Numbered from the stretch's first letter, positions 3,296-23,097 are shown. The stretch: 25,489 bases of DNA from a virus (IMGVR_UViG_3300011113_000605:1-25489); one strand, 5' to 3'. A program made the numbers and translations. Notes: generated by a model not told the origin, from the letters alone.

Positions 3296-3300
3296 AGAAA

Positions 3301-3308
3301 TATTTATG
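3301..3308 (-). promoter_or_regulatory. T4-type late promoter (CATAAATA), apparently leaderless
   Basis: On the minus strand CATAAATA is followed by five bases (TTTCT) and then the ATG at 3295. With T4 geometry the start is the A of that ATG. No ribosome site can be present in such a transcript. Confidence 0.6.
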
Positions 3309-3320
3309 GTAAAAAGAAAA

Positions 3321-3342
3321 CCCCCCAGATTTCTCTGGGGGG
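3321..3342 (-). terminator. Intrinsic terminator after gene 23
   Basis: A perfect 9-bp stem (CCCCCCAGA / TCTGGGGGG) closes a GAAA tetraloop on the minus strand and is followed by TTTTCTTTTT. It sits 28 nt after the gene 23 stop and ends the long head-tail transcript. T4 also has a terminator after gene 23. Confidence 0.9.
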
Positions 3343-3370
3343 TTTCGTTGACTTAACTTATACTATTCGA

Positions 3371-4792
3371 TCAACCGAGGGTCATACCGTGGAGGTTTGT
3401 GATTTCGGTGATGCGGTAGTATTGGTTCAAACCTTGTGTGAGGTTTTCGCCATCTGGTACGTTCGACCCAGTTAGAACGTATGGATTTGCGACTACGCCG
3501 TAACGAGTCTTGAATCCAATACGTGGTTGGAAAGTATTTGGATCAACTGCACGGACCATTTGGAGAGGAACGTATGGGCAGTAGAACAGACCTGCGTCAT
3601 ATGGAGACTCGCCCTTATAGCCAGCAACGAAGAAGTTTACACCGAGTTGTGAATAGGGATCGATGTAGACTCGGATCTTGCCGTTAAGTACACCAGCAAA
3701 GGTTGACTGAGTATCGTCACCATTGATCTGAGGAGCGATTCCGGGGCTGAGGCTCATAAAGCCAGACATGGCTAGAGCAGCAGCTGTATCGCTATCGCAG
3801 ATGATGAAGTTACCCTTGCCACGACGTGTTTCCTTGGCGATTGCGTTGCACTCTCTTTCGATTTGGAAAGTGAGGCCACGGAAGCGTTCGGCAGACCAAC
3901 GACCATCAGAATCTTGATTTAGGTCGTATCTTCCGCCACCAACTGCTGTGAGATCGTTCTGTTGTGATCCCTTGCGGGCAACGTAGTAAACTGTGCGAAT
4001 GATTTCACGGTTGATTTCAGCAAGAATTTCTGTGCTGAGTAGGTTGGCGAGTTCAGCTTCAGCGTCTAGACCGTGAACAGCCTTGAGGTCTTGTGCCAAT
4101 TCGATTGTGTAGTTGCTGGACAGAGCACGTGTACGAGCTTGTACGGCAACACGGTCGATTGAGAAGGCCATTTGGTTGAAGTTTGGATTGGAACCACCGC
4201 CACCCAAACCTTCACCTCTGCCTGTCAACAATCCACGGAATCGGCTGAAATCTGCAGCAGCAAAATTACGAAGTGTAATTGGATTGCTTGCAGAAGATCC
4301 GGAGAAGCCGCAGAGACCATAGAAGGCTGTTTGACCAGCATAGTCTTGACCGATTGTGTAACCAGAACCACCGTATTGTGGTTGTGCTTCTTGGAACATT
4401 GCTTCAGCGTACAATCTGGTGTTACCATATTCGTAACCACCGTAGTTAGCGCGCATTGCAAAGATGAGGCCGGTTGGAGCAGTCATTGGCTGAACGCCGC
4501 AGATGTCATAGGCCATCAAGTTTGGCATAGCACGACGAACCAGTGAGATGAGAACTGGATCGTAACCAGACACTGCACCTGTGTTGGTGAAGGTGGTTGG
4601 CATTCCCAAATTGTTGGAGGTCATGTCTTCTGTTAGGTGTTGAGCACGAAGAGCTTGCTCTTGGTTCTCTAGAAGGACGGCTGTGACTTTCTTGCGATAG
4701 TCATCTTGGATTTCTGGAAGAGCATCATGAGCGAGAACTGGATTCCACTTCTCGGTCAAGATGTCGTAAGGTGTGTTGTCTTGAAAGTTCAT
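3371..4792 (-). CDS. gp23: Major capsid protein gp23
   Basis: 473 residues; T4 gp23 is 521. It forms the hexameric lattice of the head. Diagnostic stretches are D-P-V-L-I-S-L-V-R-R-A-M-P-N-L-M-A-Y-D-I-C-G-V-Q-P-M (about 80-105) followed by P-T-G-L-I-F-A-M-R, the V-Q-A-R-T-R-A-L-S-S-N-Y-T-I-E-L-A-Q-D-L-K region, and G-K-I-R-V-Y-I-D-P-Y in the last third. L-T-E at 53-55 fits the L/I-x-E rule of the gp21 protease and lies close to the T4 processing site (after residue 65), so the mature protein probably starts at about D56. Its GC content and codon use are clearly richer than the surrounding AT-rich genes, as expected for a very highly expressed protein. The ribosome site CAGGAG lies upstream, with a late-type promoter before it and a terminator after. 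Confidence 0.97.
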   Translation of the reverse strand: MNFQDNTPYDILTEKWNPVLAHDALPEIQDDYRKKVTAVLLENQEQALRAQHLTEDMTSNNLGMPTTFTNTGAVSGYDPVLISLVRRAMPNLMAYDICGVQPMTAPTGLIFAMRANYGGYEYGNTRLYAEAMFQEAQPQYGGSGYTIGQDYAGQTAFYGLCGFSGSSASNPITLRNFAAADFSRFRGLLTGRGEGLGGGGSNPNFNQMAFSIDRVAVQARTRALSSNYTIELAQDLKAVHGLDAEAELANLLSTEILAEINREIIRTVYYVARKGSQQNDLTAVGGGRYDLNQDSDGRWSAERFRGLTFQIERECNAIAKETRRGKGNFIICDSDTAAALAMSGFMSLSPGIAPQINGDDTQSTFAGVLNGKIRVYIDPYSQLGVNFFVAGYKGESPYDAGLFYCPYVPLQMVRAVDPNTFQPRIGFKTRYGVVANPYVLTGSNVPDGENLTQGLNQYYRITEITNLHGMTLG

Positions 4793-4820
4793 TTTCTTAG
4801 TATCTCCTGTGAGTTAAAAT

Positions 4821-4828
4821 TATTTAGG
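4821..4828 (-). promoter_or_regulatory. Late-promoter variant (CCTAAATA) for gene 23
   Basis: CCTAAATA on the minus strand lies in the 47-nt gap between genes 22 and 23. The predicted start near 4815 gives a leader of about 23 nt containing CAGGAG (4809-4804), 11 nt before the ATG. Position 2 is C instead of A, as before gene 22. Confidence 0.5.
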
Positions 4829-4839
4829 ATATTTCCTTG

Positions 4840-5895
4840 TTAGAGTTTCTTGTTGAGTTTGCCGATAACACTTGCATAAGACTCAACTGTGCTGTTTTCG
4901 GGCTTCGACACAGCTGAGAATGTCATTTCTTCATTGATTTGTTGTGGCGCTTGGCGAACAACACGTTGTGAAGATTGTGGGTTCTTTAGGTAATTTTCTT
5001 TGATTGTTACGAGTTTTTCACGATATTCTTCTGGAGTTCCAAAGGCAACGTTTTCCATCAATGATTGAAGTTTGGCTACTTGTGTGTCTGCAAGATCCTT
5101 TGTTTCAGAAACAAAGATTCCAGCGCACTCAGTAAGTGCCATTTCCTTGCGAAGATTGATGTTTTCATTGATTGCACTATTCAAGGTGTTTGAAAGTTCT
5201 ACGTTGTGAGCATAAAGTTCATCAAGTGCATTGTACTTTTCTGCTGGAACATCAATGTAGTGATTCTCAAAGAGATTCTTGAGTCCCGAGATGAAGTTTT
5301 CAGCAATTTGTGTCTTGATGCCTTGCTCAACGGCAACGGCATTTTCTTGCATCCACTCTTCAACAACATAGTCTAGATAATCATCTACTTTTTCTACTAG
5401 ATTGTTGGTGACGTTCTCAAGATAATTTTTGACACCTTCGTCCAAAGAAACTACGGTCTTTGATACTTCTGCATTTACTTTTTCTTGAACTGCGGCTTCA
5501 AAAATTGCCTCAAGTTGTGTTACGAGGGTTGAGTCAGCGGCCTCTTCACCAAGGAGTTCAACCAAAGCATTCTTGAATTTGATTGCAGACTCGTTGGTCT
5601 CGGTTGGCTCTTCTTCCTCTTCCTCTTCCTCCTCAGATTCCATTGGTTCTTCTTCTGGTTCATTTTGAGTTGGTGCTGGTCCAGATGCTGGAGCACCACC
5701 CATTGAAGCCATTCCACCAGCCATAGCAGCCATGGTGGTTGGAACCTGTGCTTTTGCATAATTATTTGCGGTTACAACTGGAGTTGGGGTCACGTTGCCC
5801 TTGCCATCTGGTGTATAAGCAACACCATTTGCTGGCATAACCATACCCATACCCTGTTGCATTTGTTCATTGATTGTATTTTTTGTTCTCTTCAT
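4840..5895 (-). CDS. gp22: Prohead core scaffold protein gp22
   Basis: 351 residues; T4 gp22 is 269. It is the main scaffolding protein of the prohead core and is degraded by gp21 during maturation. The helical body shows the family signature Y-L-D-Y-V-V-E-E-W-M-Q-E-N-A-V-A-V-E-Q-G-I (about 165-190) followed by T-Q-I-A-E-N-F-I-S-G-L-K-N-L-F-E-N-H-Y-I. The extra length is an N-terminal low-complexity region of about 100 residues rich in M, G, A and P, ending in an almost pure Glu run (about 81-96). Several L-x-E sites (for example LGE, LTE) could be gp21 targets. A ribosome site (AAGGAT) lies 8 nt before the ATG, and the gene stands directly before gene 23. Confidence 0.93.
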   Translation of the reverse strand: MKRTKNTINEQMQQGMGMVMPANGVAYTPDGKGNVTPTPVVTANNYAKAQVPTTMAAMAGGMASMGGAPASGPAPTQNEPEEEPMESEEEEEEEEEPTETNESAIKFKNALVELLGEEAADSTLVTQLEAIFEAAVQEKVNAEVSKTVVSLDEGVKNYLENVTNNLVEKVDDYLDYVVEEWMQENAVAVEQGIKTQIAENFISGLKNLFENHYIDVPAEKYNALDELYAHNVELSNTLNSAINENINLRKEMALTECAGIFVSETKDLADTQVAKLQSLMENVAFGTPEEYREKLVTIKENYLKNPQSSQRVVRQAPQQINEEMTFSAVSKPENSTVESYASVIGKLNKKL

Positions 5896-5917
5896 ATCAA
5901 TAGATCCTTGATCTTAC

Positions 5918-6760
5918 TTATTTAGCAATTCCCATTCTCCTTAGATTTTCTAAAGATCCACCTAAAGTGCCTACAGCACCAACATTTGTGGTTGCTTGTC
6001 TACCTATTGAATCAGATGCTTCTTTGGCTCCCATTCTTGTTAAAGCATATTCAAATGGATCTTTTCCAAGAATTGCAATTTTTCCAATTCGTTCTGCTTG
6101 ACGAATTCCAGTTTCACCGAGTCTTCCTTTCGCCAAGAATCCTTGTGTTGATCCACCGTATGTCGTTGGATCAATTAAACCATAAGCAAGGTTGAAGATT
6201 TTGCTAGCAGCCTCGGATGGTGCACCCATGATACCTAGACCCTCTCCGAGTCCAAGTTCACCAATAGATTTGTTTATGGCTTCTCCAATGTCGTCTTCTT
6301 GACCAAGATAAAGCCTTGCCATCGCAGTTCTTGCAACTTGCTTTAATGCATATTCCGCTGGAGCAGCCATCGCTTGACCCGCTTTGTTCATTGCTCCGGT
6401 CGCAAAGTCAAATCCAACTTCATAAGCACTTTTTGGTGTTCCTGCTGGCCTTCCACCAAAAAGACCATACTTTGCTAGATCCATTCCTTTTCCAACAAGA
6501 CCAGTTGCACTAGCAATACCACCAGCAGTGATACCTTCAAGCATTTTTTCAACCATGTTTCTGTGGTTCCACCACATGGCTTGATTTTCAAGATCCCATC
6601 CACTAGGGACTCCAGTTCTTCCATATCGAATCATCTGAGATTTTTTTTGTTGTTCTTCTGGTGTTCTTTGCTTTGGTTGACTTCGTGTACTAGGTGGAAC
6701 AGATTGCTCTGTTAAATAAGAGCAAATTATGTTCTTGGTGTATGGATCGAAAGTATTCAT
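5918..6760 (-). CDS. Unknown protein between genes 21 and 22; probable internal head/core protein
   Basis: 280 residues with no family I recognise. The N-terminus (1-60) is polar with a Q/K/P-rich stretch. The remainder is rich in Gly and Ala with helices such as A-G-G-I-A-S-A-T-G-L-V-G-K-G and repeated G-L-G-E-G-type turns. L-T-E at 16-18 equals the presumed gp21 cleavage motif of gp23, and further I-G-E and L-G-E sites occur (about 165-220). Position between the prohead protease and the scaffold, with a TAATG overlap to gene 21 and 22 nt to gene 22, suggests co-assembly into the prohead core or packaging inside the head. In T4 nothing comparable lies here. Function is inferred from context and motif only; the gene itself is secure. 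Confidence 0.6.
   Translation of the reverse strand: MNTFDPYTKNIICSYLTEQSVPPSTRSQPKQRTPEEQQKKSQMIRYGRTGVPSGWDLENQAMWWNHRNMVEKMLEGITAGGIASATGLVGKGMDLAKYGLFGGRPAGTPKSAYEVGFDFATGAMNKAGQAMAAPAEYALKQVARTAMARLYLGQEDDIGEAINKSIGELGLGEGLGIMGAPSEAASKIFNLAYGLIDPTTYGGSTQGFLAKGRLGETGIRQAERIGKIAILGKDPFEYALTRMGAKEASDSIGRQATTNVGAVGTLGGSLENLRRMGIAK
5919..5926 (-). promoter_or_regulatory. Possible late-promoter variant (GCTAAATA) for gene 22
   Basis: GCTAAATA covers the stop codon of the preceding gene. The predicted start near 5913 gives a leader of about 17 nt containing AAGGAT (5909-5904) before the gene 22 ATG. It resembles the gene 23 site in having C at position 2. Confidence 0.4.
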
Positions 6761-7404
6761 TATAGATTTTTGAAGTATTGCTCAAATACCTTTACGATAT
6801 TTTTTTGTAAATTTCGATTTGAGGAAGTTTTTACCAATTTTCTTGCTCTATCAATTTCTCTTTCCTGCCAAATTCCACTCTCATAGATCCATTCTCTTCC
6901 TTCCATGATTCCATTGACGAAAGCATTTGGTGCTGATGGATCTGCTACTATATCAATAGCGGCAAGCATAAAATCCTCTTGCACTTCTTGATAGCCATTC
7001 TTTGCCTTGAGTGATCCCATTCCTCTAGTAGAAACTCCAAGTTGAGCACCTTCTTCAATGAGATTTTTTACAATTCTTCCCATCGGGGTGTCCATAACCT
7101 TTGCCTTGCCATAAACATTTTTTCCATCTTCATGAAGTTCTTTGACAATATGAGAAACGCGATCAAGATTAACAGTTGGACCTGTTGGGTGGTTTAGTTC
7201 ACCGAGTGCACGACCCTTATTTACATATTCGTTGATGTAACGACTAGCTTCCTTTGCAAGAATGTTTTTTGGGTAGATTCTTCCATTCTTGTTTTTGACA
7301 TCAGACTGCATAAAGATGCCTTCAATGAAGTAATTTTTATCTCCATTGCCAACGTTTTCTTTTACGTACTTGATGTCTTCTGTTAGCTCGGTGATCAGTT
7401 TCAT
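6760..7404 (-). CDS. gp21: Prohead maturation protease gp21
   Basis: 214 residues; T4 gp21 is 212. It is a serine protease with the herpesvirus-assemblin type fold that sits in the prohead core and cleaves gp22, gp23 and internal proteins at L/I-x-E sites. Visible signatures are N-K-N-G-R-I-Y-P (38-45), the catalytic His in G-E-L-N-H-P-T-G (H72), the nucleophile in G-V-S-T-R-G-M-G (S125), and D-I-V-A-D-P-S-A-P (151-159). The start overlaps the stop of the small core gene upstream (ATGA), and its stop overlaps the next start (TAATG), so the core genes are translationally coupled. Confidence 0.96.
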   Translation of the reverse strand: MKLITELTEDIKYVKENVGNGDKNYFIEGIFMQSDVKNKNGRIYPKNILAKEASRYINEYVNKGRALGELNHPTGPTVNLDRVSHIVKELHEDGKNVYGKAKVMDTPMGRIVKNLIEEGAQLGVSTRGMGSLKAKNGYQEVQEDFMLAAIDIVADPSAPNAFVNGIMEGREWIYESGIWQEREIDRARKLVKTSSNRNLQKNIVKVFEQYFKNL

Positions 7405-7580
7405 TTAGTTTCCCCCGATTCGTTTTTATTCTGTGAAAAAATATTTTTGGCCACAACGACATATTGATCTTTTAACTTATGATTGATCTTCTCATAAAGA
7501 GCATCACTTGTGCTTTTCTTGAAACCGACAGCATTTTCCTCTACCACGTCTTTGATCATGTTCTTTACTTTGTTGTTCAT
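7401..7580 (-). CDS. Small prohead core protein, gp67-like
   Basis: 59 residues: it starts MNNKVKNMIKDVVEEN, has FKKSTSDALYEKINHKLKDQ in the middle (20-39), and continues VVVAKNIF (41-48). It is bounded by a TAATG overlap with the upstream gene and an ATGA overlap with gene 21, which makes it a convincing gene despite its size. In T4 the small core protein gp67 (80 residues) lies just upstream of 68 and 21. The pattern of a short N-terminal helix, an F-K-x3-L-x2-K-I helix and a final V-A-K-x-I-F helix fits small core proteins of T4-like phages. The assignment rests on position, size, charge and this pattern. Confidence 0.7.
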   Translation of the reverse strand: MNNKVKNMIKDVVEENAVGFKKSTSDALYEKINHKLKDQYVVVAKNIFSQNKNESGETK

Positions 7581-7999
7581 TAGATTGCCTTTTTTGCCTT
7601 ATCGTAAAAATCTAAAGTTCTTTTTAATCCACCTTGATTTTCAAAAAGTTCTTTGACCATCATTTGACGATTTTTTGAATTTAAGGAGTCAAAAAGAAAT
7701 TTTATTTTTGTTAAATCATTTTCAGTAATATTTATAGTTGTACCATTTTTGCATTTTAAATTTTTATTCGTTTTTGGATTGTAATTGTCAATAAATTCTA
7801 AAAACATTAAAATGTCTTCATTTATTTCTGTTGAATCTTTTATGAGCAAAATTTTTGAAGAAAGTTCTTTTTGAACTTCTTTGACTGCCTCATTCAACTT
7901 GAATGAAAGAGAGTTGACTAAACTTTTCTTAAAGGAATCATCGCTTTCATACATCAAAGAATTGATTCCGCTTTTCAAAATTATGGTAGAAAGATTCAT
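7580..7999 (-). CDS. Small prohead core protein, gp68-like
   Basis: 139 residues, close to T4 gp68 in length, and located between the portal gene and the gp67-like gene. In T4 the order is 20-67-68-21; here the longer protein comes first. It is highly charged and helical. Residues 23-51 (FKKSLVNSLSFKLNEAVKEV onward) can be laid against the small neighbouring core protein's FKKS helix, suggesting a shared core-forming module. The second half (D-L-T-K-I-K-F-L-F-D-S-L-N-S-K-N-R-Q-M-M, about 95-115) is another helix pair. It overlaps gene 20 by TAATG. A role in the prohead core is inferred from context; sequence similarity to T4 gp68 could not be verified. Confidence 0.55.
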   Translation of the reverse strand: MNLSTIILKSGINSLMYESDDSFKKSLVNSLSFKLNEAVKEVQKELSSKILLIKDSTEINEDILMFLEFIDNYNPKTNKNLKCKNGTTINITENDLTKIKFLFDSLNSKNRQMMVKELFENQGGLKRTLDFYDKAKKAI

Positions 8000-9576
8000 T
8001 ATTGCTGTCCTTCGGGTGGTGGTTGACCTTGTTGTGCTGCCATGGCCTGTTGCTGTGCCATCATAATCATCTGTTCTTGCCTCATTTTTTCTCTATCAAC
8101 TTCCATTTGCTTGTCCAAAAGTTTCATTTCATTCTCAGTTTGCTTTAAAATCTTGCTTCGAATATATTCTGTTGAGAAATACTTTCCAACATAAGGCTCT
8201 GTTATGGAAAGCATTTTGATTCTCTCTGACAAAATTTCTGCTTCTTTCAAATCCCAGAAATAATTGTCTGTGTTATAAACAAGTTTGATATCTTGTTTTA
8301 GTTGATTCCAGTCGTCCTCGGTCATAACTCCCTTTAGAAGGAGTTGGACTCTCAAAAAATCTAAGAATAATTTTGAAAAATGTTGACGAAGTCTATCGAT
8401 GAATTTATAGAATTTTACTTCTTCTCTTGTAATTTCAAGAGAACGACCCATGTTAAAACCAGTTTGCTCTGCAACCAAGCGACTGAGTGGAACGTTCAAC
8501 GAATTATAAAGTTTCTTCTTGAAGTAGTCCACATCTTCTATTTGAGACATGGCGTTTCCACCAGGGAGAACTGAAATCTGTGTACCCTGTGATCCTTCAC
8601 GTCGTGGTAACCAATAATCCTCAAGCACTGAAAGGTGATTTCTTTCATCACGTATTTCACCAGAACTCTGATTATAAATGATTCTATTTCTGAATCTACT
8701 CATCATATCGCGCAAATATTGTTCAGCTTTTTGTTTTGGCAATTGACCAACGTCAACATAGAACACCCTGCGCTCAGGTGCACGGGCAACACGATAAACT
8801 AGAAGAGCATCTTCTAGTTGTCTTAACATATTCAGAGGACGAATCGCTTTATGAAGATAACCTAGGACTCTCTTTGTATTCATGTCCACCAATCCCGATG
8901 GAACGTATACAACACTGTCCAACGACAATTGAAGCCCACCAGGTCCAGTCATCAAGAATGATTCCTTATCGGAATCAGTGTATGTGTAATATTCTTCAAT
9001 TTCTTTGATTAAATTGACTGAACCTGTTTTTGTTCTTTCTTGTTCTTTTTTAATTTTTCTTACTTTTTTGATCTTTAGTGGATCGATTGGAATTATTTCT
9101 TTTATTCCGTCTACTGGATTGTCTTTGTCTATTACAATGTTATAGAAAAGTCTGGAATCAATATACCATCTTCTAAAAATTTCATATCCTCTATGATTGA
9201 AATCCAAAAGATGAATGATTCTGTCAAATTCTCTGTATATTTTTATCTTAATTGATTCTGGTATTTCAAGATTTTTTAAATCCAATTTTACAGGATTTGC
9301 TTCGCTTCCTTTTACAATAGCAGCATTTACAATTTCTTCAATTGCATTATCTATTTCAGGATATACAGACATGTTTCTGTATTGAATTACTGCACTGCTT
9401 TCGTCTTTCAGCGTGCCTGTGTAATCTATCGCAGAACTGAAATATCCACCAGCCTCGACTGTTACGGTTCCATCAAATGTTTCTGGAGCCGCAATTTTTT
9501 GTAAAGCTATATCTTCGACCTCTTTTTTGGTCTTTTGTTTTTTTCCAAATTCAAATCCAAATACTTCTATTTCCAT
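7999..9576 (-). CDS. gp20: Portal vertex protein gp20
   Basis: 525 residues; T4 gp20 is 524. The dodecameric portal starts prohead assembly, is the DNA entry channel and joins head to neck. Diagnostic regions are A-P-E-R-R-V-F-Y-V-D-V-G-Q-L-P-K-x-K-A-E-Q-Y-L (about 265-290), L-E-D-Y-W-L-P-R-R-E-G-S-x-G-T-x-I-x-x-L-P-G-G (about 320-340) and D-V-D-Y-F-K-K-K-L-Y-N-S-L-N-V-P-x-S-R-L (about 350-370). The C-terminus is a Gln/Met-rich helix ending in a P-P-E-G-Q-Q tail. A purine-rich AAGAGAAC ribosome site lies in the 23-nt gap before the ATG. Confidence 0.97.
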   Translation of the reverse strand: MEIEVFGFEFGKKQKTKKEVEDIALQKIAAPETFDGTVTVEAGGYFSSAIDYTGTLKDESSAVIQYRNMSVYPEIDNAIEEIVNAAIVKGSEANPVKLDLKNLEIPESIKIKIYREFDRIIHLLDFNHRGYEIFRRWYIDSRLFYNIVIDKDNPVDGIKEIIPIDPLKIKKVRKIKKEQERTKTGSVNLIKEIEEYYTYTDSDKESFLMTGPGGLQLSLDSVVYVPSGLVDMNTKRVLGYLHKAIRPLNMLRQLEDALLVYRVARAPERRVFYVDVGQLPKQKAEQYLRDMMSRFRNRIIYNQSSGEIRDERNHLSVLEDYWLPRREGSQGTQISVLPGGNAMSQIEDVDYFKKKLYNSLNVPLSRLVAEQTGFNMGRSLEITREEVKFYKFIDRLRQHFSKLFLDFLRVQLLLKGVMTEDDWNQLKQDIKLVYNTDNYFWDLKEAEILSERIKMLSITEPYVGKYFSTEYIRSKILKQTENEMKLLDKQMEVDREKMRQEQMIMMAQQQAMAAQQGQPPPEGQQ

Positions 9577-9599
9577 GATTGTTCTCTTATGTAGTTATA

Positions 9600-10148
9600 T
9601 CAATTATCAGGCACAACATCCGTAACACCGTCTATTTCAATCGAATCGTAGATAAAAATAACACTAAATTTTACCAAAGTATTCGGTGATCCCATGCTAA
9701 ACGCTATTGGTTCAATTGTTTTTGGCCAACATCCATGCAATGTGAATGATTTATGTGGATCTTCTTCTCCATTTAGATTCAAATGTTTTATTTTCCAATT
9801 CATGGCTTTATAATCAAAAGCAGCATTTGGAATGGTACTAATGTTAGTAACGTGGTTGTTTATAGTATTGTGCCAGGTTGAAAATTTTTGCCAAAGATTT
9901 TGCGTGTCTCCAGTATCATCCAATACTATCACGGACCAAGGACCATATTGCTTTTCACCAGGATAATATGCCTTTCTTCCAAAGTATTCATATTGAATTC
10001 TTTGTGAAGACATGGCTGGAATTGTAGTTGTTTGTATGTGAAATTTGCTAAATTCACCATTTCCCGGAATAACACCTTCAACCAAAAATCTATTTGATCT
10101 GGTTCCACCATTAAAGGCATTCTTGAAATCTGAAATGCTAATTGCCAT
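9600..10148 (-). CDS. gp19: Tail tube protein gp19 (copy next to portal)
   Basis: 182 residues; T4 gp19 is 163. It polymerises into the inner tail tube through which DNA passes. The start F-K-N-A-F-N-G-G-T-R-S-N-R-F-L-V (8-23), the Y-F-G-R-K-A-Y-Y-P-G-E-K-Q-Y-G-P-W-S-V-I-V-L-D-D (about 54-78) block, the L-W-Q-K-F-x-x-W region, and L-N-L-N-G-E-E-D with a C-W-P motif and a final F-I-Y-D strand are family features. Its position between sheath and portal matches T4 (18-19-20). It starts in a TAATG overlap with a second gp19-like gene, so the two were probably made by duplication and are translated in a coupled way. Confidence 0.9.
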   Translation of the reverse strand: MAISISDFKNAFNGGTRSNRFLVEGVIPGNGEFSKFHIQTTTIPAMSSQRIQYEYFGRKAYYPGEKQYGPWSVIVLDDTGDTQNLWQKFSTWHNTINNHVTNISTIPNAAFDYKAMNWKIKHLNLNGEEDPHKSFTLHGCWPKTIEPIAFSMGSPNTLVKFSVIFIYDSIEIDGVTDVVPDN

Positions 10149-10720: not shown

Positions 10721-10722
10721 TA

Positions 10723-12009: not shown

Positions 12010-12024
12010 TTTGTACCTTAAAAT

Positions 12025-12032
12025 TATTTATA
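12025..12032 (-). promoter_or_regulatory. T4-type late promoter (TATAAATA) for sheath-tube-portal genes
   Basis: A perfect T4 late consensus in the 28-nt gap between genes 17 and 18. The predicted start near 12019 gives a leader of about 10 nt beginning AAGG, a ribosome site at the very 5' end. The element lies inside an 8-bp inverted repeat (12020-12037). Confidence 0.75.
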
Positions 12033-14108: not shown

Positions 14109-14110
14109 CT

Positions 14111-14776: not shown

Positions 14777-14778
14777 TA

Positions 14779-15609
14779 TTATCCTATAAGTGGATCCGGT
14801 GGCAATTCCTGAGTCTTGACAAGACTTTGTTCTATTTGATTTAATTCATTCACAGCATCAGCCATTATTGCAGCAGCATTCAATTGTGCTCCACCTGGAA
14901 GTGGAACGCCAGCAAATTTCATCAAATTCTGTGCCCATTGTTTCTTCAAAAGTGCCGTATAATACTTTTTGAAGATACGATCATTCCACACTCTGGAATA
15001 TTGATTGGGATCAATTTGAACATAGGCTTCAACTAAAAGATAGTGTCCAGCATTGAGTTTCTGGTTTTCTAATTCAAGAAACAGTCGTTGTGTTGTTCTT
15101 GAGAATGTAAATGAGCAAGGATAATTGAAAACATCATTTACTAACTTTAGATAACTCATGGATTCCATGTAGGATGCCATAGGACCAGTGTTAAGACCAC
15201 CTTGGTTAAAATACAAGCCAAAGAAATCAAACAGAGTAAGCTGATATCTGAGGTCAAACATATAATCACCAGAAATATCAGATGGTCTGTATACCTTTGT
15301 TATTGTACGAATGTCAGATGCATTTGGCCACGCACCTGTAATCCCGGTTGATTCGTCATAGCGATCTTGTGCACCTACGGCATTTCCAAAAGTAGAAGTG
15401 TCAAAATATCTATTAGATAAATCTTGTTGAGTTACTGGATACAAATACCAGGCTCTTTGATTAAAATCAAAGTGTCTTTCGTACATGTATTCAAGTGCTT
15501 CATTTAGTCTATCTTCGGCCTGCTCGGTATCAATATTAATTTGAATTACCGGGGCACCCAAAGATCGGAAGCAATAGTCTATAAATTGCTGCTTAGTGGT
15601 AGGTTGCAT
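14779..15609 (-). CDS. gp13: Neck protein gp13
   Basis: 276 residues; T4 gp13 is 309. It is a neck (head-to-tail connector) protein. The N-terminus Q-Q-F-I-D-Y-C-F-R-S-L-G-A-P-V-I-Q-I-N-I-D-T-E-Q-A-E-D-R-L-N-E-A-L-E-Y is typical. The C-terminal part has K-K-Q-W-A-Q-N-L-M-K-F-A-G-V-P-L-P-G-G-A-Q-L-N (about 218-240) and ends L-P-P-D-P-L-I-G, as in gp13 of marine T4-like phages. A late-type promoter lies just before the ATG so that the predicted transcript begins at the start codon; no ribosome site is visible. Confidence 0.88.
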   Translation of the reverse strand: MQPTTKQQFIDYCFRSLGAPVIQINIDTEQAEDRLNEALEYMYERHFDFNQRAWYLYPVTQQDLSNRYFDTSTFGNAVGAQDRYDESTGITGAWPNASDIRTITKVYRPSDISGDYMFDLRYQLTLFDFFGLYFNQGGLNTGPMASYMESMSYLKLVNDVFNYPCSFTFSRTTQRLFLELENQKLNAGHYLLVEAYVQIDPNQYSRVWNDRIFKKYYTALLKKQWAQNLMKFAGVPLPGGAQLNAAAIMADAVNELNQIEQSLVKTQELPPDPLIG

Positions 15610-15614
15610 GAAAA

Positions 15615-15622
15615 TATTTATG
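15615..15622 (-). promoter_or_regulatory. T4-type late promoter (CATAAATA) for gene 13 operon, apparently leaderless
   Basis: CATAAATA overlaps the stop of the upstream gene and is followed by TTTTC and then the ATG at 15609. With T4 geometry the first transcribed base is the A of the ATG. The 15-base string ATAAATATTTTCATG is identical before the tube-cap gene starting at 22645. Confidence 0.65.
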
Positions 15623-16061: not shown

Positions 16062-16063
16062 GA

Positions 16064-16684
16064 TTACACACTTTCATACAAAACAACAATTCCCGCTGGA
16101 TATACACATTTGTTTAAGAAATTTTTGTATTTGTCTTGAACATTTGCTCTTACAATTATAAATCCAGGACTTCCGGTGACGACTTCGCAGGATTCATATG
16201 GAATTCCCAACAATGTCACCAAAAGATAATGTATTGCCTCAAGACTTCCCTTTTTGTGAAAATAGTTTGCATCAACATTGATTGAAAACTTTCTTAAATT
16301 AGGAAGTATATCTGAAAACTCGTCTGTTGAAAAATCAAATTGAGGAAAATAGAGATCCGCTAATCCTAATAACAATTTGTCTGTTATTTTTTGTGGAACG
16401 TGAATTGTTTCCCATGGAACTGCCGCCCCATATCCGCGCTCAATATCAAATAACCATCTTTGATAACTTTTTACTATATCTACAATCAACACATTTGATG
16501 GATCTTCTTTTGATTTTTGAATTATCCATTTAGGAAAAAGTGCATCAACAGTTAAGTTGTCACCCAACCAACGATCTCCAGATACATTGTAAAAATTTGA
16601 ACCAAGAGTTTCAGCAACCAAACTAACCATCTTGGTTATTTTTGTATCTAGGCTTACAGGTAATTTATTGAAGAGTAAAATCAT
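16064..16684 (-). CDS. Baseplate wedge protein, tail-protein-I-like
   Basis: 206 residues. It directly follows gp6 (ATGA overlap), which follows gp25. In P2-like phages the order gpW (gp25)-gpJ (gp6)-gpI is the same, and gpI-like domains are found in T4 gp7. The C-terminal half contains F-S-I-N-V-D-A-N-Y-F-H-K-K-G-S-L-E-A-I-H-Y-L-L-V-T-L-L-G (about 131-158), resembling the K-G-T-x-x-A-I-x-x-x-L-x-x-L-G signature of gpI, and ends with Y-P-A-G-I-V-V-L-Y-E. It likely forms the wedge with gp6 and gp53. Far shorter than T4 gp7 (1032 residues). The gpI relation is pattern-based. Confidence 0.65.
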   Translation of the reverse strand: MILLFNKLPVSLDTKITKMVSLVAETLGSNFYNVSGDRWLGDNLTVDALFPKWIIQKSKEDPSNVLIVDIVKSYQRWLFDIERGYGAAVPWETIHVPQKITDKLLLGLADLYFPQFDFSTDEFSDILPNLRKFSINVDANYFHKKGSLEAIHYLLVTLLGIPYESCEVVTGSPGFIIVRANVQDKYKNFLNKCVYPAGIVVLYESV

Positions 16685-17751
16685 AGTGAATATATCAAGT
16701 TTATTCCAGCCACCGCTCTAATTCCAAGATAAACCATTAAAGCAGATTGATTGTCGCCACTCAATCCATTGACGTAAACTTTTACCTGACATGGAACAGA
16801 ACCATTTGCAACAGTTATTTTTGTTATATCATCTGTTCCGGGTATTCCGGACTGCAATATTGCATTTTCGTAATCTTCCAATGTTACGCATCTGTGTTCA
16901 GAGGATGCTGCAAATTGAACTTTTGCTTTAGCAAGATCAACGGATATCGTATCATAACCACCGCTTGGAGTATTATTTGTAAGGAAAGTCACCCCAGATG
17001 CAGGAGTTATTATTGCACCATTTCCTATTGATCCATTCGTTGTTACTGCTTTTACATACACAGTTAATGTGGAATCTAGGGGATTGGATTCTGGAAGATT
17101 TGCTGTTACCAAATATCCATTTACAGTGTTTAAAACAGTATAATAATTCCCAAGAGAAGCTGAAAAACTAGATTTATCGAGCCTTGTCCATGTAGTTTCT
17201 GTTCCATATACGTCAACTGAATATAGATTTATTGTTTCTGGATCGACTGTCAGGGGTAAAACTATTGATTGTGTATTGAAATCCCAATCTGTATATTGGA
17301 CCATTGCAGATCCAGAATACAGATCAACCGTGGTCTCCGTATCGCTAGTTAACCCAACTGTATTGAAAAAGAGTATGGTTGTCCCATCAACTGCTGTTGC
17401 ATTGAATGGTGTATAAGCACTCAGACCAGCGGATGATATTGAAACTGAATTACTAACCTTTGCGGATTTTTTTACTTCTAGCAATACTGAACTATTGGAT
17501 GAAAGCCCAACTATTGATTCAAGCAAAGTTGCGGTACTCAAAAAAGATTCATGATAGCCAAATTGAGAATAAATTCCGTTATATGCAACACCAGTGGCCA
17601 GAATGTTGCAAAGCATGTTTATCGCACTAGCATCATTGTCAAAATCCAATGAACTGAGAGATGGTTCCGATTTTAAAAAGGTCTTCAGTGATGCAACAAT
17701 ATCGGCATAATTTAAAGACGCTACATTTAATTTTCTAAAGTCAAGTGTCAT
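16681..17751 (-). CDS. gp6: Baseplate wedge protein gp6 (short form, Baseplate_J family)
   Basis: 356 residues; T4 gp6 is 660. gp6 dimers form the inner ring of the baseplate. The N-terminus L-N-Y-A-D-I-V-A-S-L-K-T-F-L-K-S-E-P-S-L-S-S-L-D-F (13-37), the I-N-M-L-C-N-I-L-A-T-G-V-A-Y-N-G-I-Y segment and H-E-S-F-L-S-T-A-T-L-L-E-S-I-V-G-L match gp6. The C-terminal part has the Baseplate_J-type region with R-C-V-T-L-E-D-Y-E-N-A-I-L (about 284-297). It overlaps gp25 upstream and the protein-I-like gene downstream, each by ATGA. The compact form resembles the P2 gpJ core more than the expanded T4 protein. Confidence 0.88.
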   Translation of the reverse strand: MTLDFRKLNVASLNYADIVASLKTFLKSEPSLSSLDFDNDASAINMLCNILATGVAYNGIYSQFGYHESFLSTATLLESIVGLSSNSSVLLEVKKSAKVSNSVSISSAGLSAYTPFNATAVDGTTILFFNTVGLTSDTETTVDLYSGSAMVQYTDWDFNTQSIVLPLTVDPETINLYSVDVYGTETTWTRLDKSSFSASLGNYYTVLNTVNGYLVTANLPESNPLDSTLTVYVKAVTTNGSIGNGAIITPASGVTFLTNNTPSGGYDTISVDLAKAKVQFAASSEHRCVTLEDYENAILQSGIPGTDDITKITVANGSVPCQVKVYVNGLSGDNQSALMVYLGIRAVAGINLIYSL

Positions 17752-18128
17752 ACTAGATCTACCTCTATTTTACATGTTGTTTCGTTACTTGTTTTTTGAT
17801 ATCTAAGAGAAAAGGTCACATTCATTATTATTTTTTCATCATCGTAATAAATTACTTTAACTTTGACCTTAGAAATATCTTTTATAGAACTTTTTATTGA
17901 ATTAGCTATTTCACTTTCCAAACCATTTTTATTTGATCTTGGATCAAATATGAAAGAATAATAGTTGGTCCCAAGATATGATGTTGAAGGTATTTCACCC
18001 TTTTGCAATCTGCATATATTCTCTATTTTTTGAACATATGAGTTTATATCACTAACAAAAGAAATGTCTTTCTTGTTGTTTGTGGAATCTATTTTAAGTC
18101 CGAGAATATTGAAGTCTTTGCTGTACAC
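17748..18128 (-). CDS. gp25: Baseplate wedge protein gp25
   Basis: 126 residues; T4 gp25 is 132. It belongs to the gpW/gp25 baseplate family and interacts with gp6 and the first sheath ring. The F-V-S-D-I-N-S-Y-V-Q-K-I-E-N-I-C-R-L-Q-K-G-E-I-P-S-T-S-Y-L-G-T-N-Y-Y-S-F-I-F-D (24-64) region is the family pattern (S-x-x-x-x-I-x-x-x-L-x-T-x-x-G-E), ending in paired strands. The start is GTG at 18128: the codon just upstream is TGA and the nearby ATG (18132) is out of frame. A perfect TATAAATA lies 6 nt upstream, so the transcript would begin about one base before the GTG, without a ribosome site. Confidence 0.88.
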   Translation of the reverse strand: MYSKDFNILGLKIDSTNNKKDISFVSDINSYVQKIENICRLQKGEIPSTSYLGTNYYSFIFDPRSNKNGLESEIANSIKSSIKDISKVKVKVIYYDDEKIIMNVTFSLRYQKTSNETTCKIEVDLV

Positions 18129-18155
18129 TCATAATATTTATATTAAATATTATGA
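18129..18155. repeat. 27-nt perfect inverted repeat at the gp25 promoter
   Basis: Two 12-nt arms (TCATAATATTTA and its exact reverse complement) flank TAT. The repeat contains the TATAAATA late promoter of gp25 and the stop codon of the preceding gene, and ends just before the GTG. In read-through RNA it would form an AU hairpin beside the gp25 start; in RNA from the local promoter it would be absent. No U tract follows, so it is not a standard terminator. Confidence 0.7.
18135..18142 (-). promoter_or_regulatory. T4-type late promoter (TATAAATA) for gp25-gp6 operon
   Basis: Perfect T4 late consensus on the minus strand, followed by TTATGA and the GTG start. The predicted start is one nucleotide before GTG, an almost leaderless mRNA. 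Confidence 0.7.
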
Positions 18156-18866
18156 AACTTCATTTGCCCTGATATCCGAAAGAACTAATTTTGTCTCATG
18201 TACACCGGAATTTGATATGGTATGTTTTACCGAAAGAACATAATATTTCTTAGAAAGAATTGATACTGGTATTGTATTTGAATATGCTGCCATGTTGTCC
18301 ACTTTGAGTTCAACCACATTTCCCGGTTTTATTCTAAAATCTCCAGCAATATCAATTGAAATTTTTTCACCATGATTTATTAACTCCGCAAATTGATTTC
18401 TCATGACGGGAGCATCTATTGGTGTATACCAGAACGTAGCATCACTTAATCTCAATTTTAAGTAATTTACATAATTTTGACCAACGTCTGGGCAAGTACA
18501 ACTAAATGGAGCCATAGGAGAACCCCAAAGACACCCTAACCACGATTCGCCCAAAACATTTTTAACTTTTTCGCATTCTTCAGATGTAATTCCAAGCAAT
18601 GGATCAAAAATAGTAGGAACACTACCTTCTGGTGGAGGGCTTCCTGGACCTGCCCACATAGTGGAAGATACACCAAGATTAGATGCTATTAGTGCTACAT
18701 TCGGAAATCTTTCAAAACAATCGTTCAGAGTCTCAGGTGCACTTGTTACACCCCTTGTTATCAAAGCATTGGCGCACATATAAGAATCATGCGAAGAAAT
18801 TGTGTTCTTTGCATAGTTTATCTTGGTTGCACCAATTGTCTTTATTTGATTTGGTGTATTGGCCAT
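18150..18866 (-). CDS. Putative baseplate hub component (gp27 C-terminal-domain-like)
   Basis: 238 residues. The first half is Cys-containing and poorly recognisable, with C-x-W-G-S-P-M-A-P-F-S-C-T-C-P-D near 112-127. The second half has a beta-rich domain: I-S-I-D-I-A-G-D-F-R-I-K-P-G-N-V-V-E-L-K-V (about 174-194), then L-S-K-K-Y-Y-V-L-S-V-K-H-T-I-S-N-S-G-V-H-E-T-K-L-V-L-S (about 206-232). G-D-F-x-I-x-P-G with Y-x-V-x-x-V-x-H is the pattern of the last domain in phage hub proteins (gp27/gpD type). It starts one base after the stop of the large hub-like gene, so the hub function may be divided between two polypeptides. The assignment is inference from pattern and position. Confidence 0.5.
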   Translation of the reverse strand: MANTPNQIKTIGATKINYAKNTISSHDSYMCANALITRGVTSAPETLNDCFERFPNVALIASNLGVSSTMWAGPGSPPPEGSVPTIFDPLLGITSEECEKVKNVLGESWLGCLWGSPMAPFSCTCPDVGQNYVNYLKLRLSDATFWYTPIDAPVMRNQFAELINHGEKISIDIAGDFRIKPGNVVELKVDNMAAYSNTIPVSILSKKYYVLSVKHTISNSGVHETKLVLSDIRANEVS

Positions 18867-18867
18867 A

Positions 18868-20910
18868 TTAAGTAGTTGGGGTTGGGCAGCGACCGTCCGT
18901 AACGTTTTCTGCTGCGAATGTATAAAGGTAACGATTGGAATAATATTCTAACAAATCTTCTTTTGTTACTTCAGCTTCAATTAACAATCTTTTCATTGGT
19001 GTTTTTGTCATTCTAACAATGTGATATTTACCACAATCAAAATTAGCACAACCAGATTCAGTGTCTAGATCTCTTATATTATGCCCTATTGGTCTATAGG
19101 TAACATTTGTATATTCATTCGCTAAAATACTCAACGCATGCCACCCAGGGGCATATTTTCCAATTCCAAGACTTGTGTCTACAAAATTTGTTCGTTCATT
19201 TAAATTTATTGCATAAGTAGAAAAATCATCGGGAACTGATTTATCTGTGCTTGTTATATCAAATTCCCAGAATGGTTTTTCAAACCCTCGGAATGGATTG
19301 TTTGTTTTTGTAGATGATATTACTGATGAAGAAGGGGCAGTTGGCTTTAGACGAACGAAGTAGTAAAGATACTTCAGTGGTTCACCATTTACGCCATTCT
19401 CTGCATAGGGACTTATTTCTGGTGTATATCCTGTTATTGCGGCAAAAAAGGTTTCATCTTGTAGATTTTCTTCCGGTGTTGTCAAACAACACAAAACATA
19501 AGCGACAAAATTTTGTCTTTCTATTTCTCTTATCTTTTCCAATTGATCTGGAATTCCATTTGTTTCTTTAAATACTTCATACCTTAAAGATATAATTTTA
19601 TCCAAATTAGTGTTATTTTTTGTATAAGAAGTAAGAGGACAATTTGGATGCAATGAAGTCAAATCAAATTGATGTCTCCACATTTCCGTGCTATCAATAT
19701 AAGGAAACAATCCAGTAAGTCCCATAAATTCAGGATTTACGTATTTTTGTTCCAAGCCAAATACGTTTCCAATGTGTGTTGGTTTATTTACTTTATTGAT
19801 GGATGTCAAATCATCATAATATCCCCAATGACCATCATATGTTATTTCATTCGCCCCATTCGGTACGGTGTTAAAGATTCCATCAGATGTTACAATAGAG
19901 ATTGTGTATTTTTCTCCCTCATCTTGATATTGATATAGAAGTTGATCGTATGGCAGTCCAGAACTTGGGCTCAAAAGTCTTGGAGTTTTTCTTACATAAA
20001 AAGCCTTTGTTGACATAAATTGATCTGCTGGATCTGTAAGAAAGGTATATATTTTTTTGAATATTTTTTCATCACCATCTCTATCAATTGTTATAGCTGG
20101 AGTATCACTATCATATACAGCATACCTAAAATTATTTTCATCTAATTTTGTTAATTGATTTTCATCTTCATCTGGATGTTGGTAAAAATATTTAAAATTT
20201 ACAGTATTGTCCCAACCAGTCCAAAAAAGGAATCTAGGCAAATATCTATTAGCATTTGGATTTCTTCCAACCGCATATGAACTTAAATAAGAAAAGTATT
20301 GCATGCAATTGTCTGTTGGTAGATCAGTTCTACTTTCCAAACAATTTAAAGGTTTATATAAAACAAAATTTTCTGTTTTATCTACTGTTAATTTTATATC
20401 ATCTGCAGCACTAAAATGTGTATGCATTGCATTATTTAATTTTGGAATTATGTCTTCCATAAATTCATGTATCAATGATACTGTTGGTTTTTTTGTATTT
20501 ACAATGTTTACTAATGATTCTTGTTCAATCGTATGATAAAGATGATTTGTAAAATTTATGGAAACATAAGTTTCACTAGTTTCTGATGCTGCGTTGTTCA
20601 AATAACTAGTGCTTGATATATAAAAATTATGAAAAGTTCCATCAAGGTATTTTATCATTATTGCATTAAATTCATTTTCCTTGATAACAGTAACAATGTC
20701 TGTCAGATCTCTTACAGTGATAGCACCCTTTGGATACTGCTCAAAAACACTCTCAATCATTTCAAGTTTTTCAAACTTGCAATGAACATTATTCATTAAT
20801 GATAAATCTTCGGTTCCCCCACCACTAGCATCGTCATTGTACAACCAAATCTCAGAAATTTTTGAGTATAGTGGATTTGCCGAACTGTAATCTAAAGGAG
20901 CATCACCCAT
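18868..20910 (-). CDS. Putative baseplate hub protein (gp27-like, large)
   Basis: 680 residues; T4 gp27 is 391. Near the N-terminus, V-H-C-K-F-E-K-L-E-M-I-E-S-V-F-E-Q-Y-P-K-G-A-I-T-V-R-D-L-T-D-I-V (43-74) resembles the first domain of hub proteins, where a strand with E-S is followed by G-x-I-x-I-x-D. The middle region has A-N-R-Y-L-P-R-F-L-F-W-T-G-W-D-N (about 222-237), and the end has C-G-K-Y-H-I-V-R-M-T-K-T-P-M-K-R-L-L-I-E-A. It lies between the gp53-like gene (5 nt upstream) and the smaller hub-like gene, in the baseplate cluster. Hub identity is probable; a different baseplate structural role is possible. Confidence 0.5.
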   Translation of the reverse strand: MGDAPLDYSSANPLYSKISEIWLYNDDASGGGTEDLSLMNNVHCKFEKLEMIESVFEQYPKGAITVRDLTDIVTVIKENEFNAIMIKYLDGTFHNFYISSTSYLNNAASETSETYVSINFTNHLYHTIEQESLVNIVNTKKPTVSLIHEFMEDIIPKLNNAMHTHFSAADDIKLTVDKTENFVLYKPLNCLESRTDLPTDNCMQYFSYLSSYAVGRNPNANRYLPRFLFWTGWDNTVNFKYFYQHPDEDENQLTKLDENNFRYAVYDSDTPAITIDRDGDEKIFKKIYTFLTDPADQFMSTKAFYVRKTPRLLSPSSGLPYDQLLYQYQDEGEKYTISIVTSDGIFNTVPNGANEITYDGHWGYYDDLTSINKVNKPTHIGNVFGLEQKYVNPEFMGLTGLFPYIDSTEMWRHQFDLTSLHPNCPLTSYTKNNTNLDKIISLRYEVFKETNGIPDQLEKIREIERQNFVAYVLCCLTTPEENLQDETFFAAITGYTPEISPYAENGVNGEPLKYLYYFVRLKPTAPSSSVISSTKTNNPFRGFEKPFWEFDITSTDKSVPDDFSTYAINLNERTNFVDTSLGIGKYAPGWHALSILANEYTNVTYRPIGHNIRDLDTESGCANFDCGKYHIVRMTKTPMKRLLIEAEVTKEDLLEYYSNRYLYTFAAENVTDGRCPTPTT

Positions 20911-20915
20911 AAAAA

Positions 20916-21782
20916 TTATACCTCATAGTTTTGAACTACTCTTGTAAATGCCGAATATTTCATTGTTCCAGAAATATACGAATTTATATTATTTTGTTTT
21001 GTTTGAATTGTTTGGTTTATATCAATATATTGAGTTGGGCCTTCCGGTGGTATTTCGTAGGGAGAAAGACCAAATCCCTTTTTAATCAATGGATATTCGG
21101 ATTTTACAGTTGCGTATGATGTTTTTTCAGCTGTCTGAAAAGTTATTTCATCTGTTATACTAAGAGTGGCAGCGGTGCTTCCAATATAAATTTCACCAGT
21201 ATATGTTGTTCCAAAAATTTCTTTTGTAAAATTATATAAAGAATATCCGGTTGGTCCCTTAATCAAAGCTGAAATAAGACTAGACAATTGAAAGGTGAAG
21301 CCAATTGGTTGTTTGGTTATTGCTCGCTTTGAAAACGTGTTATAAGAATCAATAACAGCAAAACCACCAGTGAGACTAAAGTTACCGGTGCTTCCGTAGC
21401 TCCAAGATGCCCCTGTTACCTCTGTTGCTGGAAATATAATTGATCCAGGAGTCAATATAGCATCATTGTAATCTGGAACCAATTGTTGTTGAACTCCTAG
21501 TCCAAGTAATTGACTTGCAGATTCTTTTACTGATGTATTGCTAAAATCAAGTAAATCAAAAGGGTTTATAGTTTTATTGGCAAATAAAAATAACCAAAAT
21601 GAATCCACATCATCATAGATTGATTGAGCTAATTCAACTAAAGTCTGTGTATTGTCTACATTTATCTCTTTTGTTTTAAATTGAGAATCATCAACCTTCA
21701 AATATGACGTAAGATCAACAATACTGAATGTGCCTATTGTTGTTGCATACTGCAATTTGGATTGAGATAAAAAATATTTCAT
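20916..21782 (-). CDS. gp53: Baseplate wedge protein gp53-like
   Basis: 288 residues; T4 gp53 is 196. gp53 links adjacent wedges around the hub. The N-terminal part has the LysM-like signature seen in gp53: V-D-N-T-Q-T-L-V-E-L-A-Q-S-I-Y-D-D-V-D-S-F-W-L-F-L-F-A-N-K-T-I-N-P-F-D-L (42-77), where a short helix is followed by an aromatic W and x-N-x-I-x-x-P-F. The rest is beta-rich with Gly/Ser/Thr runs. It begins in an ATGA overlap with the tube-cap gene and is followed after 5 nt by the large hub gene. The longer C-terminal part is not recognised. Confidence 0.65.
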   Translation of the reverse strand: MKYFLSQSKLQYATTIGTFSIVDLTSYLKVDDSQFKTKEINVDNTQTLVELAQSIYDDVDSFWLFLFANKTINPFDLLDFSNTSVKESASQLLGLGVQQQLVPDYNDAILTPGSIIFPATEVTGASWSYGSTGNFSLTGGFAVIDSYNTFSKRAITKQPIGFTFQLSSLISALIKGPTGYSLYNFTKEIFGTTYTGEIYIGSTAATLSITDEITFQTAEKTSYATVKSEYPLIKKGFGLSPYEIPPEGPTQYIDINQTIQTKQNNINSYISGTMKYSAFTRVVQNYEV

Positions 21783-22645
21783 GGACTTGTTGGTGTATAT
21801 CCAAAATAATTATAAGAGATTTCAGATTTGGACAATACTTCATTGGTTTCTGGGTCGAATGTTCCTGTTTCAAATTCTTCAAAAACAAGTCCAAGCATTG
21901 TTACGTTGGAATAACCACTTGGAAGCAATCTAACTATTGGATCCGCTCTGTCGTTTTTCTTAACGCTCACTGTTTTTAAAACACATGGAAGTGGATCTCC
22001 CAACCAATCCCTTGTTGGATTTTCAGATTCAACGGAACTTGGTGCACTAGCTCCATAAGTTATTTGCATAGACCACAAGTTTTGAGGATATGTTCTTTCA
22101 GGCAATTCAAATACTGCGGTTGGATATGAAACTTTTCTAAAAGATCCAATTATATCTTCGACTTCAAGACTTTCATCCTTATTCTTTGGAGCAAATATGT
22201 ATTCAAAAACGTACTTTTTTCTTGCTTCTGAAACTAAAGTCAATTCTGTTATATTTGAATATCTTCTAAAAGTGCTGGTACTAGCGGTTGTTGCATTTGA
22301 GTATTCGGCAAAAAAATTAGCCCTTGATAACGCAGCTTCACGATCTTCTCCATCTCTTGTTAGGTAGGATCCACCATTATTTGCTAAATTTGGAGCTAAA
22401 TCAACACTTGGCAACAATGGACTGCCAGCCATTGAAAATTCATGATTGGCGTTGTAGCCTACTTCTCTTGGCAAAGGGAGTTTTATTTGGCCAAAAGAAT
22501 TCTGTATTATTCCCGCGTTTGTTCGTTTAAAGTTAATCAATGAATATTTTGATGCATAAAATGTAATCCAAAGTGGTTGCTCTGCAGCATAATCCCCTTT
22601 AGGGTATTGATAATACCAAGCATCATCAGTGATTTGTTGAACCAT
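21779..22645 (-). CDS. Baseplate tail-tube cap/initiator (gp48/gp54-like)
   Basis: 288 residues. In T4, gp48 (364) and gp54 (320) sit on the hub and start tube polymerisation. Here R-R-Y-S-N-I-T-E-L-T-L-V-S-E-A-R-K-K-Y-V-F-E-Y-I-F-A-P-K-N (126-154) followed by V-E-D-I-I-G-S-F-R-K-V-S-Y-P (about 161-174) matches the tube-fold core of that family. Early K-L-P-L-P-R-E-V-G-Y and C-terminal V-R-L-L-P-S-G-Y-S-N-V-T-M-L-G-L-V-F-E-E-F-E are also in keeping. I cannot decide between gp48 and gp54. It is the first gene of the leftward late block, and its late promoter predicts a transcript that starts at the ATG. Confidence 0.65.
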   Translation of the reverse strand: MVQQITDDAWYYQYPKGDYAAEQPLWITFYASKYSLINFKRTNAGIIQNSFGQIKLPLPREVGYNANHEFSMAGSPLLPSVDLAPNLANNGGSYLTRDGEDREAALSRANFFAEYSNATTASTSTFRRYSNITELTLVSEARKKYVFEYIFAPKNKDESLEVEDIIGSFRKVSYPTAVFELPERTYPQNLWSMQITYGASAPSSVESENPTRDWLGDPLPCVLKTVSVKKNDRADPIVRLLPSGYSNVTMLGLVFEEFETGTFDPETNEVLSKSEISYNYFGYTPTSP

Positions 22646-22650
22646 GAAAA

Positions 22651-22658
22651 TATTTATG
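22651..22658 (-). promoter_or_regulatory. T4-type late promoter (CATAAATA), leftward, apparently leaderless
   Basis: CATAAATA is followed by TTTTC and the ATG at 22645; the predicted start is the A of the ATG. It would drive the long leftward late block starting with the tube-cap gene. Confidence 0.7.
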
Positions 22659-22665
22659 ATAAATA
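22658..22665 (+). promoter_or_regulatory. T4-type late promoter (GATAAATA), rightward, almost leaderless
   Basis: GATAAATA is followed by TTTAA, one more base, and the gene 4 ATG at 22672. The predicted start is one base before the ATG. It drives gene 4 to the unknown gene ending at 25053. Confidence 0.7.
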
Positions 22666-22671
22666 TTTAAT

Positions 22672-23097
22672 ATGGCCTATAAAACAAGATTCATGCCACA
22701 AAACCCAAAAAAATATGTAGGAGACACATCAAAGATAGTGTGCAGATCTTTGTGGGAAAGAAATGTGTGTAAATTTTGTGATGAAAACGAAAGCATAAAA
22801 AAATGGTCATTTGAAGAGATAGTGATACCATATCAGAGCCCAATAGATAAAAAAGTACACAACTATTTTCCAGACTTTTTAATAGAATTTGACAATGGAA
22901 ACGGAATCAAAACTTGGATGGTAGAAGTTAAACCAAAAAAACAAACTTTTTTGAAAGAAAATGCTTCAAAAAAGGAAAAGATCACTTGGATAATAAATCA
23001 GGCAAAATGGAAAGCGGCAGAATCTTATTGCAACAAGCACGGAATTGAATTCAAGATAATAACAGAAAAAGAAATATTCAGCAATGCCACTAACTAA
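22672..23097 (+). CDS. gp4: Head completion protein gp4 (gp50/65-like)
   Basis: 141 residues; T4 gp4 is 150. It is needed to finish DNA-filled heads before tail joining. Clear similarity to T4: start M-A-Y-K, K-Y-V-G-D (14-18), C-R-S-L-W-E-R (24-30), V-I-P-Y (51-54), Y-F-P-D-F (65-69), V-E-V-K-P-K-K-Q-T (84-92) and the helix Q-A-K-W-K-A-A. The D68 and E85-x-K87 arrangement is that of a PD-(D/E)XK nuclease-like fold. No ribosome site is seen, in agreement with the leaderless promoter. The end overlaps the next gene by 14 nt. Confidence 0.92.
   Translation: MAYKTRFMPQNPKKYVGDTSKIVCRSLWERNVCKFCDENESIKKWSFEEIVIPYQSPIDKKVHNYFPDFLIEFDNGNGIKTWMVEVKPKKQTFLKENASKKEKITWIINQAKWKAAESYCNKHGIEFKIITEKEIFSNATN

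Follow-up and report, generated by a model that had tools for sequence, protein, structure and literature searches.

The late transcription of bacteriophage T4 is a textbook system, in which promoters of the T4 type (TATAAATA) are served by gp55, gp33 and gp45 and the messages carry leaders. Leaderless mRNAs, such as that of lambda cI, begin with a 5' AUG, lack a Shine-Dalgarno (SD) sequence, have a weakly structured start and are translated by SD-independent initiation; to our knowledge, the known phage cases are single regulator genes. Late promoters and leaderless mRNAs are each known, and their combination in T4-like phages is apparently undescribed: a literature search, mostly outside subscription journals, found no description of leaderless late mRNA in these phages. 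At T4 gene starts, all promoters in the stretch scanned leave leaders, with a gap (the bases between the last A of the promoter core and the start codon) of at least 12 nt and usually an SD sequence. Promoters of the class with short gaps described below (near class) numbered zero in T4 (100 kb scanned) and in the stretches scanned of P-SSM2, Syn9 and S-CREM1, and T4 therefore offers no precedent for leaderless late mRNA. Four gap-5 matches occur in T4, and both of those in the annotated stretches examined lie off gene starts.

Here we analyzed a window of 25,489 bases, the whole stretch of DNA in the virus record IMGVR_UViG_3300011113_000605 of a T4-like phage. Its major capsid protein shares at most about 55% identity with those of cyanophages in the cultured collection searched, and no near match to the window at the DNA level was found among cultured phages. 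A gp23 search of genome contigs for host identification found no relative.

Several late genes of the window start immediately downstream of a late promoter core. On the minus strand, ATAAATA at 3301..3307 is followed, after a gap of 5 (spacer TTTCT), by the ATG at 3295 of a tube-like tail-completion gene (gp3/gp19-like; 2753..3295; phrog_45), which occupies the position of the P-SSM2 “gp3” and the HTVC008M tail completion genes. The same gap separates ATAAATA at 15615..15621 (minus strand, spacer TTTTC) from the ATG at 15609 of gene 13, encoding the gp13 neck protein or head-tail adaptor (14779..15609; phrog_211, with a match to T4 gp13), and ATAAATA at 22651..22657 (minus strand, spacer TTTTC) from the ATG at 22645 of a probable gp48-like tail-tube cap gene (21779..22645). 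The gap is 6 between ATAAATA at 18135..18141 (minus strand, spacer TTATGA) and the GTG at 18128 of gene 25, a gp25-like baseplate wedge gene (17748..18128; phrog_261/phrog_43), and between ATAAATA at 22659..22665 (plus strand, spacer TTTAAT) and the ATG at 22672 of the gene for the head completion protein gp4 (22672..23097; phrog_218). The tail-completion and gene 13 messages are predicted to be leaderless, and that of gene 25 leaderless or with a one-base leader. The cap candidate has no Pfam or PHROG match and is assigned by synteny with Mosig only, its neighbors being those of the Mosig T4_tail_cap gene, between gp4 and gp53. A Pfam match of gp4 to the TnsA-like endonuclease N-terminal domain (3.9e-23) suggests a nuclease fold for this head completion protein.

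These five sites had been reported in an earlier note made from the sequence of the window, and every coordinate proved correct, as did the absence of SD sequences at all five genes. A 15-mer noted there as repeated (ATAAATATTTTCATG) has exactly two copies in the window, with none expected in shuffles. Across the 31 gene starts of the window, five motifs at gaps 5–6 compare with 0.015 expected (Poisson P ~5e-12). A sixth near site had been overlooked: CTAAATA at 600..606 (plus strand) lies at gap 4 from the GTG at 611 of the UvsW helicase gene (611..2119) and shares bases with the stop codon of the gene before it. The core ATAAATA or CTAAATA is present at all sites, and near sites frequently have C or G in place of the first T of the T4 box.

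Other late promoters in the window lie farther from their genes and leave room for an SD sequence (far class). These are found before gene 18 (12025..12031, minus strand; gap 15, SD AAGG, predicted leader 10 nt), gene 22 (5919..5925, minus strand; gap 23, SD AAGGA, predicted leader 18 nt), gene 23 (4821..4827, minus strand; gap 28, SD AGGAG, predicted leader 23 nt) and an Sm-like gene (2112..2118, plus strand; gap 19, SD GGAGG, predicted leader 14 nt). The earlier note was right that all four exist with SD sequences; those of genes 22 and 23 have the variant core CTAAATA in place of ATAAATA.

We then evaluated the spacing in 80 related contigs obtained from a capsid search. Motif-to-start gaps at 82 loci are bimodal, with 17, 70 and 10 cases at 4, 5 and 6 nt, nearly none at 7–14 nt, and a second group at 15–28 nt; over gene families, the near class ranges from 4 to 9 and the far class from 15 to 31. 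Conservation of the 5–6 nt spacing in relatives, whose absence had been set beforehand as grounds for rejecting the idea, turned out to be strong gene by gene. In counts that include near-duplicates (among them IMGVR_UViG_3300011116_001097, a contig almost the same as the window), the gap is 5 in 68 of 78 homologs of the tail-completion/tube gene, 5 in 73 and 8 in 6 of 80 homologs of gene 13, 5–6 in all 24 close homologs of gp4 (≥64% identity), 5–9 in 24/24 cap genes and 4 in 39/39 uvsW genes. For gp25 it is 6 in ten of 14 homologs, 5 in two and 7 in two, and relatives have ATG at the position of the GTG. For homologs of genes 23, 22, 18 and the Sm-like gene, the gaps range from 15 to 31. Among gene 13 starts (loci L188–L267), gaps are 5 or 8 and never 6 or 7, i.e., a 3-nt step. 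Start codons further downstream had been named as another way for the idea to fail; in the cases that homology can check, gp4 aligns with its T4 counterpart from residue 1 and the uvsW GTG aligns with Met1 of T4 UvsW. Homologs of gene 13 also align from residue 1.

After removal of duplicates, 90 near and 99 far sites remained. An SD core is present at 1/90 near sites, where it sits within the flank of the motif itself, vs. 96/99 far sites. Near genes start with ATG in 77/90 cases, and GTG is found in 11/11 uvsW and 2/9 gp25 genes. The proposal of the earlier note that late mRNAs form two classes is thus supported, as discrete classes separated by their SD content. Near and far promoters number 20/23, 21/13, 14/10 and 10/12 in four larger contigs, raw counts that include some chance matches, above all in the first contig. 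In the clade of the window, unlike T4, about one in two start-proximal promoters would leave no leader. Several small proteins starting roughly with M[DN]YLTNYYKNLCEQLQ (L175:6823-9234, L174:12436-12981, L167:5070-5510, and at 55615 and 58343 in G004) lie mostly behind gap-5 promoters and resemble a repeated gene family.

The same gap-5 placement, partly at the same genes, occurs in the cultured pelagimyophages HTVC008M and Mosig and in the methylophage Melnitz. Matches to the gap-5 pattern vs. its reversed control are 13/2 in HTVC008M, 9/0 in Mosig and 5/0 in Melnitz, and 12/13, at least 6/9 and 3/5 of these, respectively, coincide with start codons from annotations made by others. HTVC008M, a SAR11 pelagiphage, has 12 annotated genes at a gap of exactly 5 and none at 9–15; its spacer is often GTANN, in contrast to TTTNT in the clade of the window. 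Near genes of HTVC008M include gp4 (18943), gp2 (18916, minus strand), gp48 (19456), gp25 (31132) and the tail completion gene (75830); gp20 (69453) would carry a leader. The Mosig gp48/gp4 pair, near in the window, is led (gap 24 on the gp48 side), so the near state is not fixed and switches between relatives. No gap-5 excess was found in P-SSM2, Syn9, S-CREM1, S-8S55, S-H9-1, Rhizobium N34, pf16, phiM12 or Milchi, and Campylobacter NCTC12673 has five matches vs. two in the control. Neither the gp23 tree nor the gp4 tree placed the clade firmly with respect to HTVC008M, Mosig and Melnitz; by the gp23 tree, the near trait may be shared with these phages by descent or may have arisen more than once.

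Taken together, these patterns are very probably those of gp55-type late promoters that yield mRNAs without leaders or with leaders of 0–4 nt. ATAAATA and CTAAATA would correspond to positions -12 to -6 of TATAAATA, and host RNA polymerase with a phage gp55-type sigma factor and sliding clamp would use near and far promoters alike. In the near class, promoter placement would put +1 on the start codon's first base or within a few bases of it, and the resulting messages would be translated in the leaderless, SD-independent mode; in the far class (genes 23, 22, 18, the Sm-like gene and others), the same promoter 15–31 nt upstream would give ordinary SD-led mRNA. Likenesses to T4-type late promoters include the core, the gp55-type sigma of the clade, in the led class the purine at the T4 +1 position and, probably, an AT-rich downstream sequence. 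The near messages resemble leaderless mRNAs in the 5' AUG predicted for most of them, the lack of SD and the weakly structured start, their first 40 nt showing less structure than interior windows do (P 0.002). They differ from lambda cI in that the class is genome-wide, covers late structural and replication genes, and has a dedicated late promoter. We infer that the near messages are translated without a leader. Some spacings count against this reading by departing from 5–6: uvsW combines gap 4 with GTG, some homologs of gene 13 have gap 8, and some cap genes have gaps of 7–9. A further point against it is that GTG works poorly as the start codon of leaderless messages in E. coli (PMC9031893).

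The near promoters might be real while the first gene is translated mainly by coupling from read-through transcripts, so that the short transcript serves only the genes downstream; we consider this distinctly unlikely. Read-through and translational coupling are possible at genes 13, 25 and uvsW, where a co-directional gene lies close upstream and no terminator was found in between. At gene 13 and uvsW the TAA stop codon of the preceding gene even falls inside the motif, and a co-directional neighbor ends at most 12 nt away from 22 of the 71 near genes. Coupling is inapplicable, however, to the tail-completion gene, which lies behind a conserved intrinsic terminator (3317..3346, minus strand; 13-bp stem, U-rich tail; -24.1 kcal/mol, z -4.7) placed between gene 23 and the tail-completion promoter. 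Gene 23 transcripts should end at this terminator, and therefore no place is left for a leader. Of the 48 non-redundant sites homologous to this one, 45 have such a hairpin, which ends 7–11 nt before the tail-completion motif. The terminator at 3317-3346 is almost identical across the clade, and the changes in its stem are paired (CCCGAGAAATCGGG / CCCCAGAAATGGGG).

Nor can coupling apply to the divergent genes starting at 22645 (minus strand) and 22672 (plus strand), where the upstream DNA is transcribed in the opposite direction and both promoters lie inside a 26-bp spacer (22646-22671). In HTVC008M (KC465899, 18917-18942), divergent late promoters likewise serve gp2 and gp4 with exactly 26 bp between the start codons; the partner of gp4 across the spacer is thus gp2 in HTVC008M and the cap gene in the window. 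In T4, gp4 likewise diverges from a tail gene, gp53, over a short spacer with back-to-back late promoters, but that spacer has 47 nt and the messages are led and SD-bearing, whereas the 26 bp in the window and at HTVC008M gp2/gp4 offer no room for leaders. Finally, coupling would not require the exact conservation of gap 5.

An alternative to leaderless initiation at the T4 register is that the promoters are real and +1 has shifted in this lineage, giving short leaders or starts inside the gene. Homologs of gp55 in four contigs of the clade (G001, G002, G004, and G005) are only 41–51% identical to those of cultured phages, and the gaps of the near class spread from 4 to 9, both of which would suit such a shift. 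The T4 late TATA box starts at -13 (PMC2988020), which puts its last A at -6 and +1 at offset 6 from that A. At the 99 far sites this offset holds a purine in 92%, against 9–38% at offsets 2–4, which is the T4 register; in gap-5 genes it is the A of the ATG. Upstream shifts are limited to about 10–20 nt by the terminator and the divergent gene, and starts inside the gene would cost the conserved N-termini of gp4 and UvsW. A shifted start thus appears improbable, with only a slim chance of being correct, and in vivo transcription would start at the predicted register, as judged from sequence. Offsets 1–5 downstream of the motif are mostly A/T, and the -35 region of the tail-completion gene is occupied by the terminator. 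Homologs of the gp45 clamp were found in three contigs; together with the gp55 homologs, these make gp55-type late initiation the natural reading. A search of the window fragment for gp55 gave no match because the window is only part of the genome.

It is very improbable that the motif is no promoter and instead acts on longer mRNAs as an A/T-rich translation-enhancing element, as in Bacteroidota. SD-less initiation is indeed aided by A/T-rich, unstructured start regions, yet here a fixed 7-mer sits at one distance, and control A/T 7-mers produce no comparable gap-5 peak in the same relatives. The ratio of ATAAATA to CTAAATA is 71:29 in near and far classes equally, the far class uses SD sequences, and the terminator at the tail-completion gene lies directly upstream. 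Chance placement in DNA with 64% AT, where ATAAATA as such is not enriched (12 observed vs. 9.3 expected in the window), or a by-product of start-codon calling has practically no standing, the former being ruled out by shuffles (55 start codons at gaps 4–6 in the window and four contigs vs. 4.1, sd 1.8), by the reversed pattern (45 matches to MTAAATAN5ATG in five clade contigs vs. 5), by a gap-10 control with no excess and by the spacing conserved in dozens of divergent homologs, and the latter by T4 homology and by the HTVC008M starts that others annotated independently.

The two classes follow gene function only in part. The earlier note assigned leaderless messages to the first genes of neck and baseplate operons and led ones to abundant head and sheath proteins. 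This holds for the best-known genes and fails for others, as the near class also includes uvsW, a RuvC homolog and small ORFs, and the far class a ribonucleotide reductase. Further near genes encode a phosphoesterase, a fiber-like protein and, in one relative, gp20; a tail protein gene is also far. In T4, gp4, gp13, gp25, the cap and the tail-completion protein are needed in low copy number, and capsid, scaffold and sheath in high copy number. One may speculate that leaderless messages, being initiated more weakly, are suited to assembly proteins made in few copies and that leaders serve the abundant ones, an idea about dosage that fits the best-known genes but not the same exceptions. In a stronger version, which is tentative and seems unlikely on present evidence, the leaderless class would serve regulation: an altered late ribosome pool or altered initiation factors would make it a separately controlled regulon, through which low-copy assembly proteins are dosed relative to capsid, scaffold and sheath.

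A study of pelagimyophages could not detect late promoters by the method used for cyanophages (PMC7029224), and the near placement may explain this failed prediction. The near motif spacing is also an aid for annotators correcting start codons. The prediction of leaderless messages is clear and open to test in cultured phage-host pairs. If it is true, promoter placement alone would set the mode of translation in these phages, which are related to phages of SAR11 and OM43.
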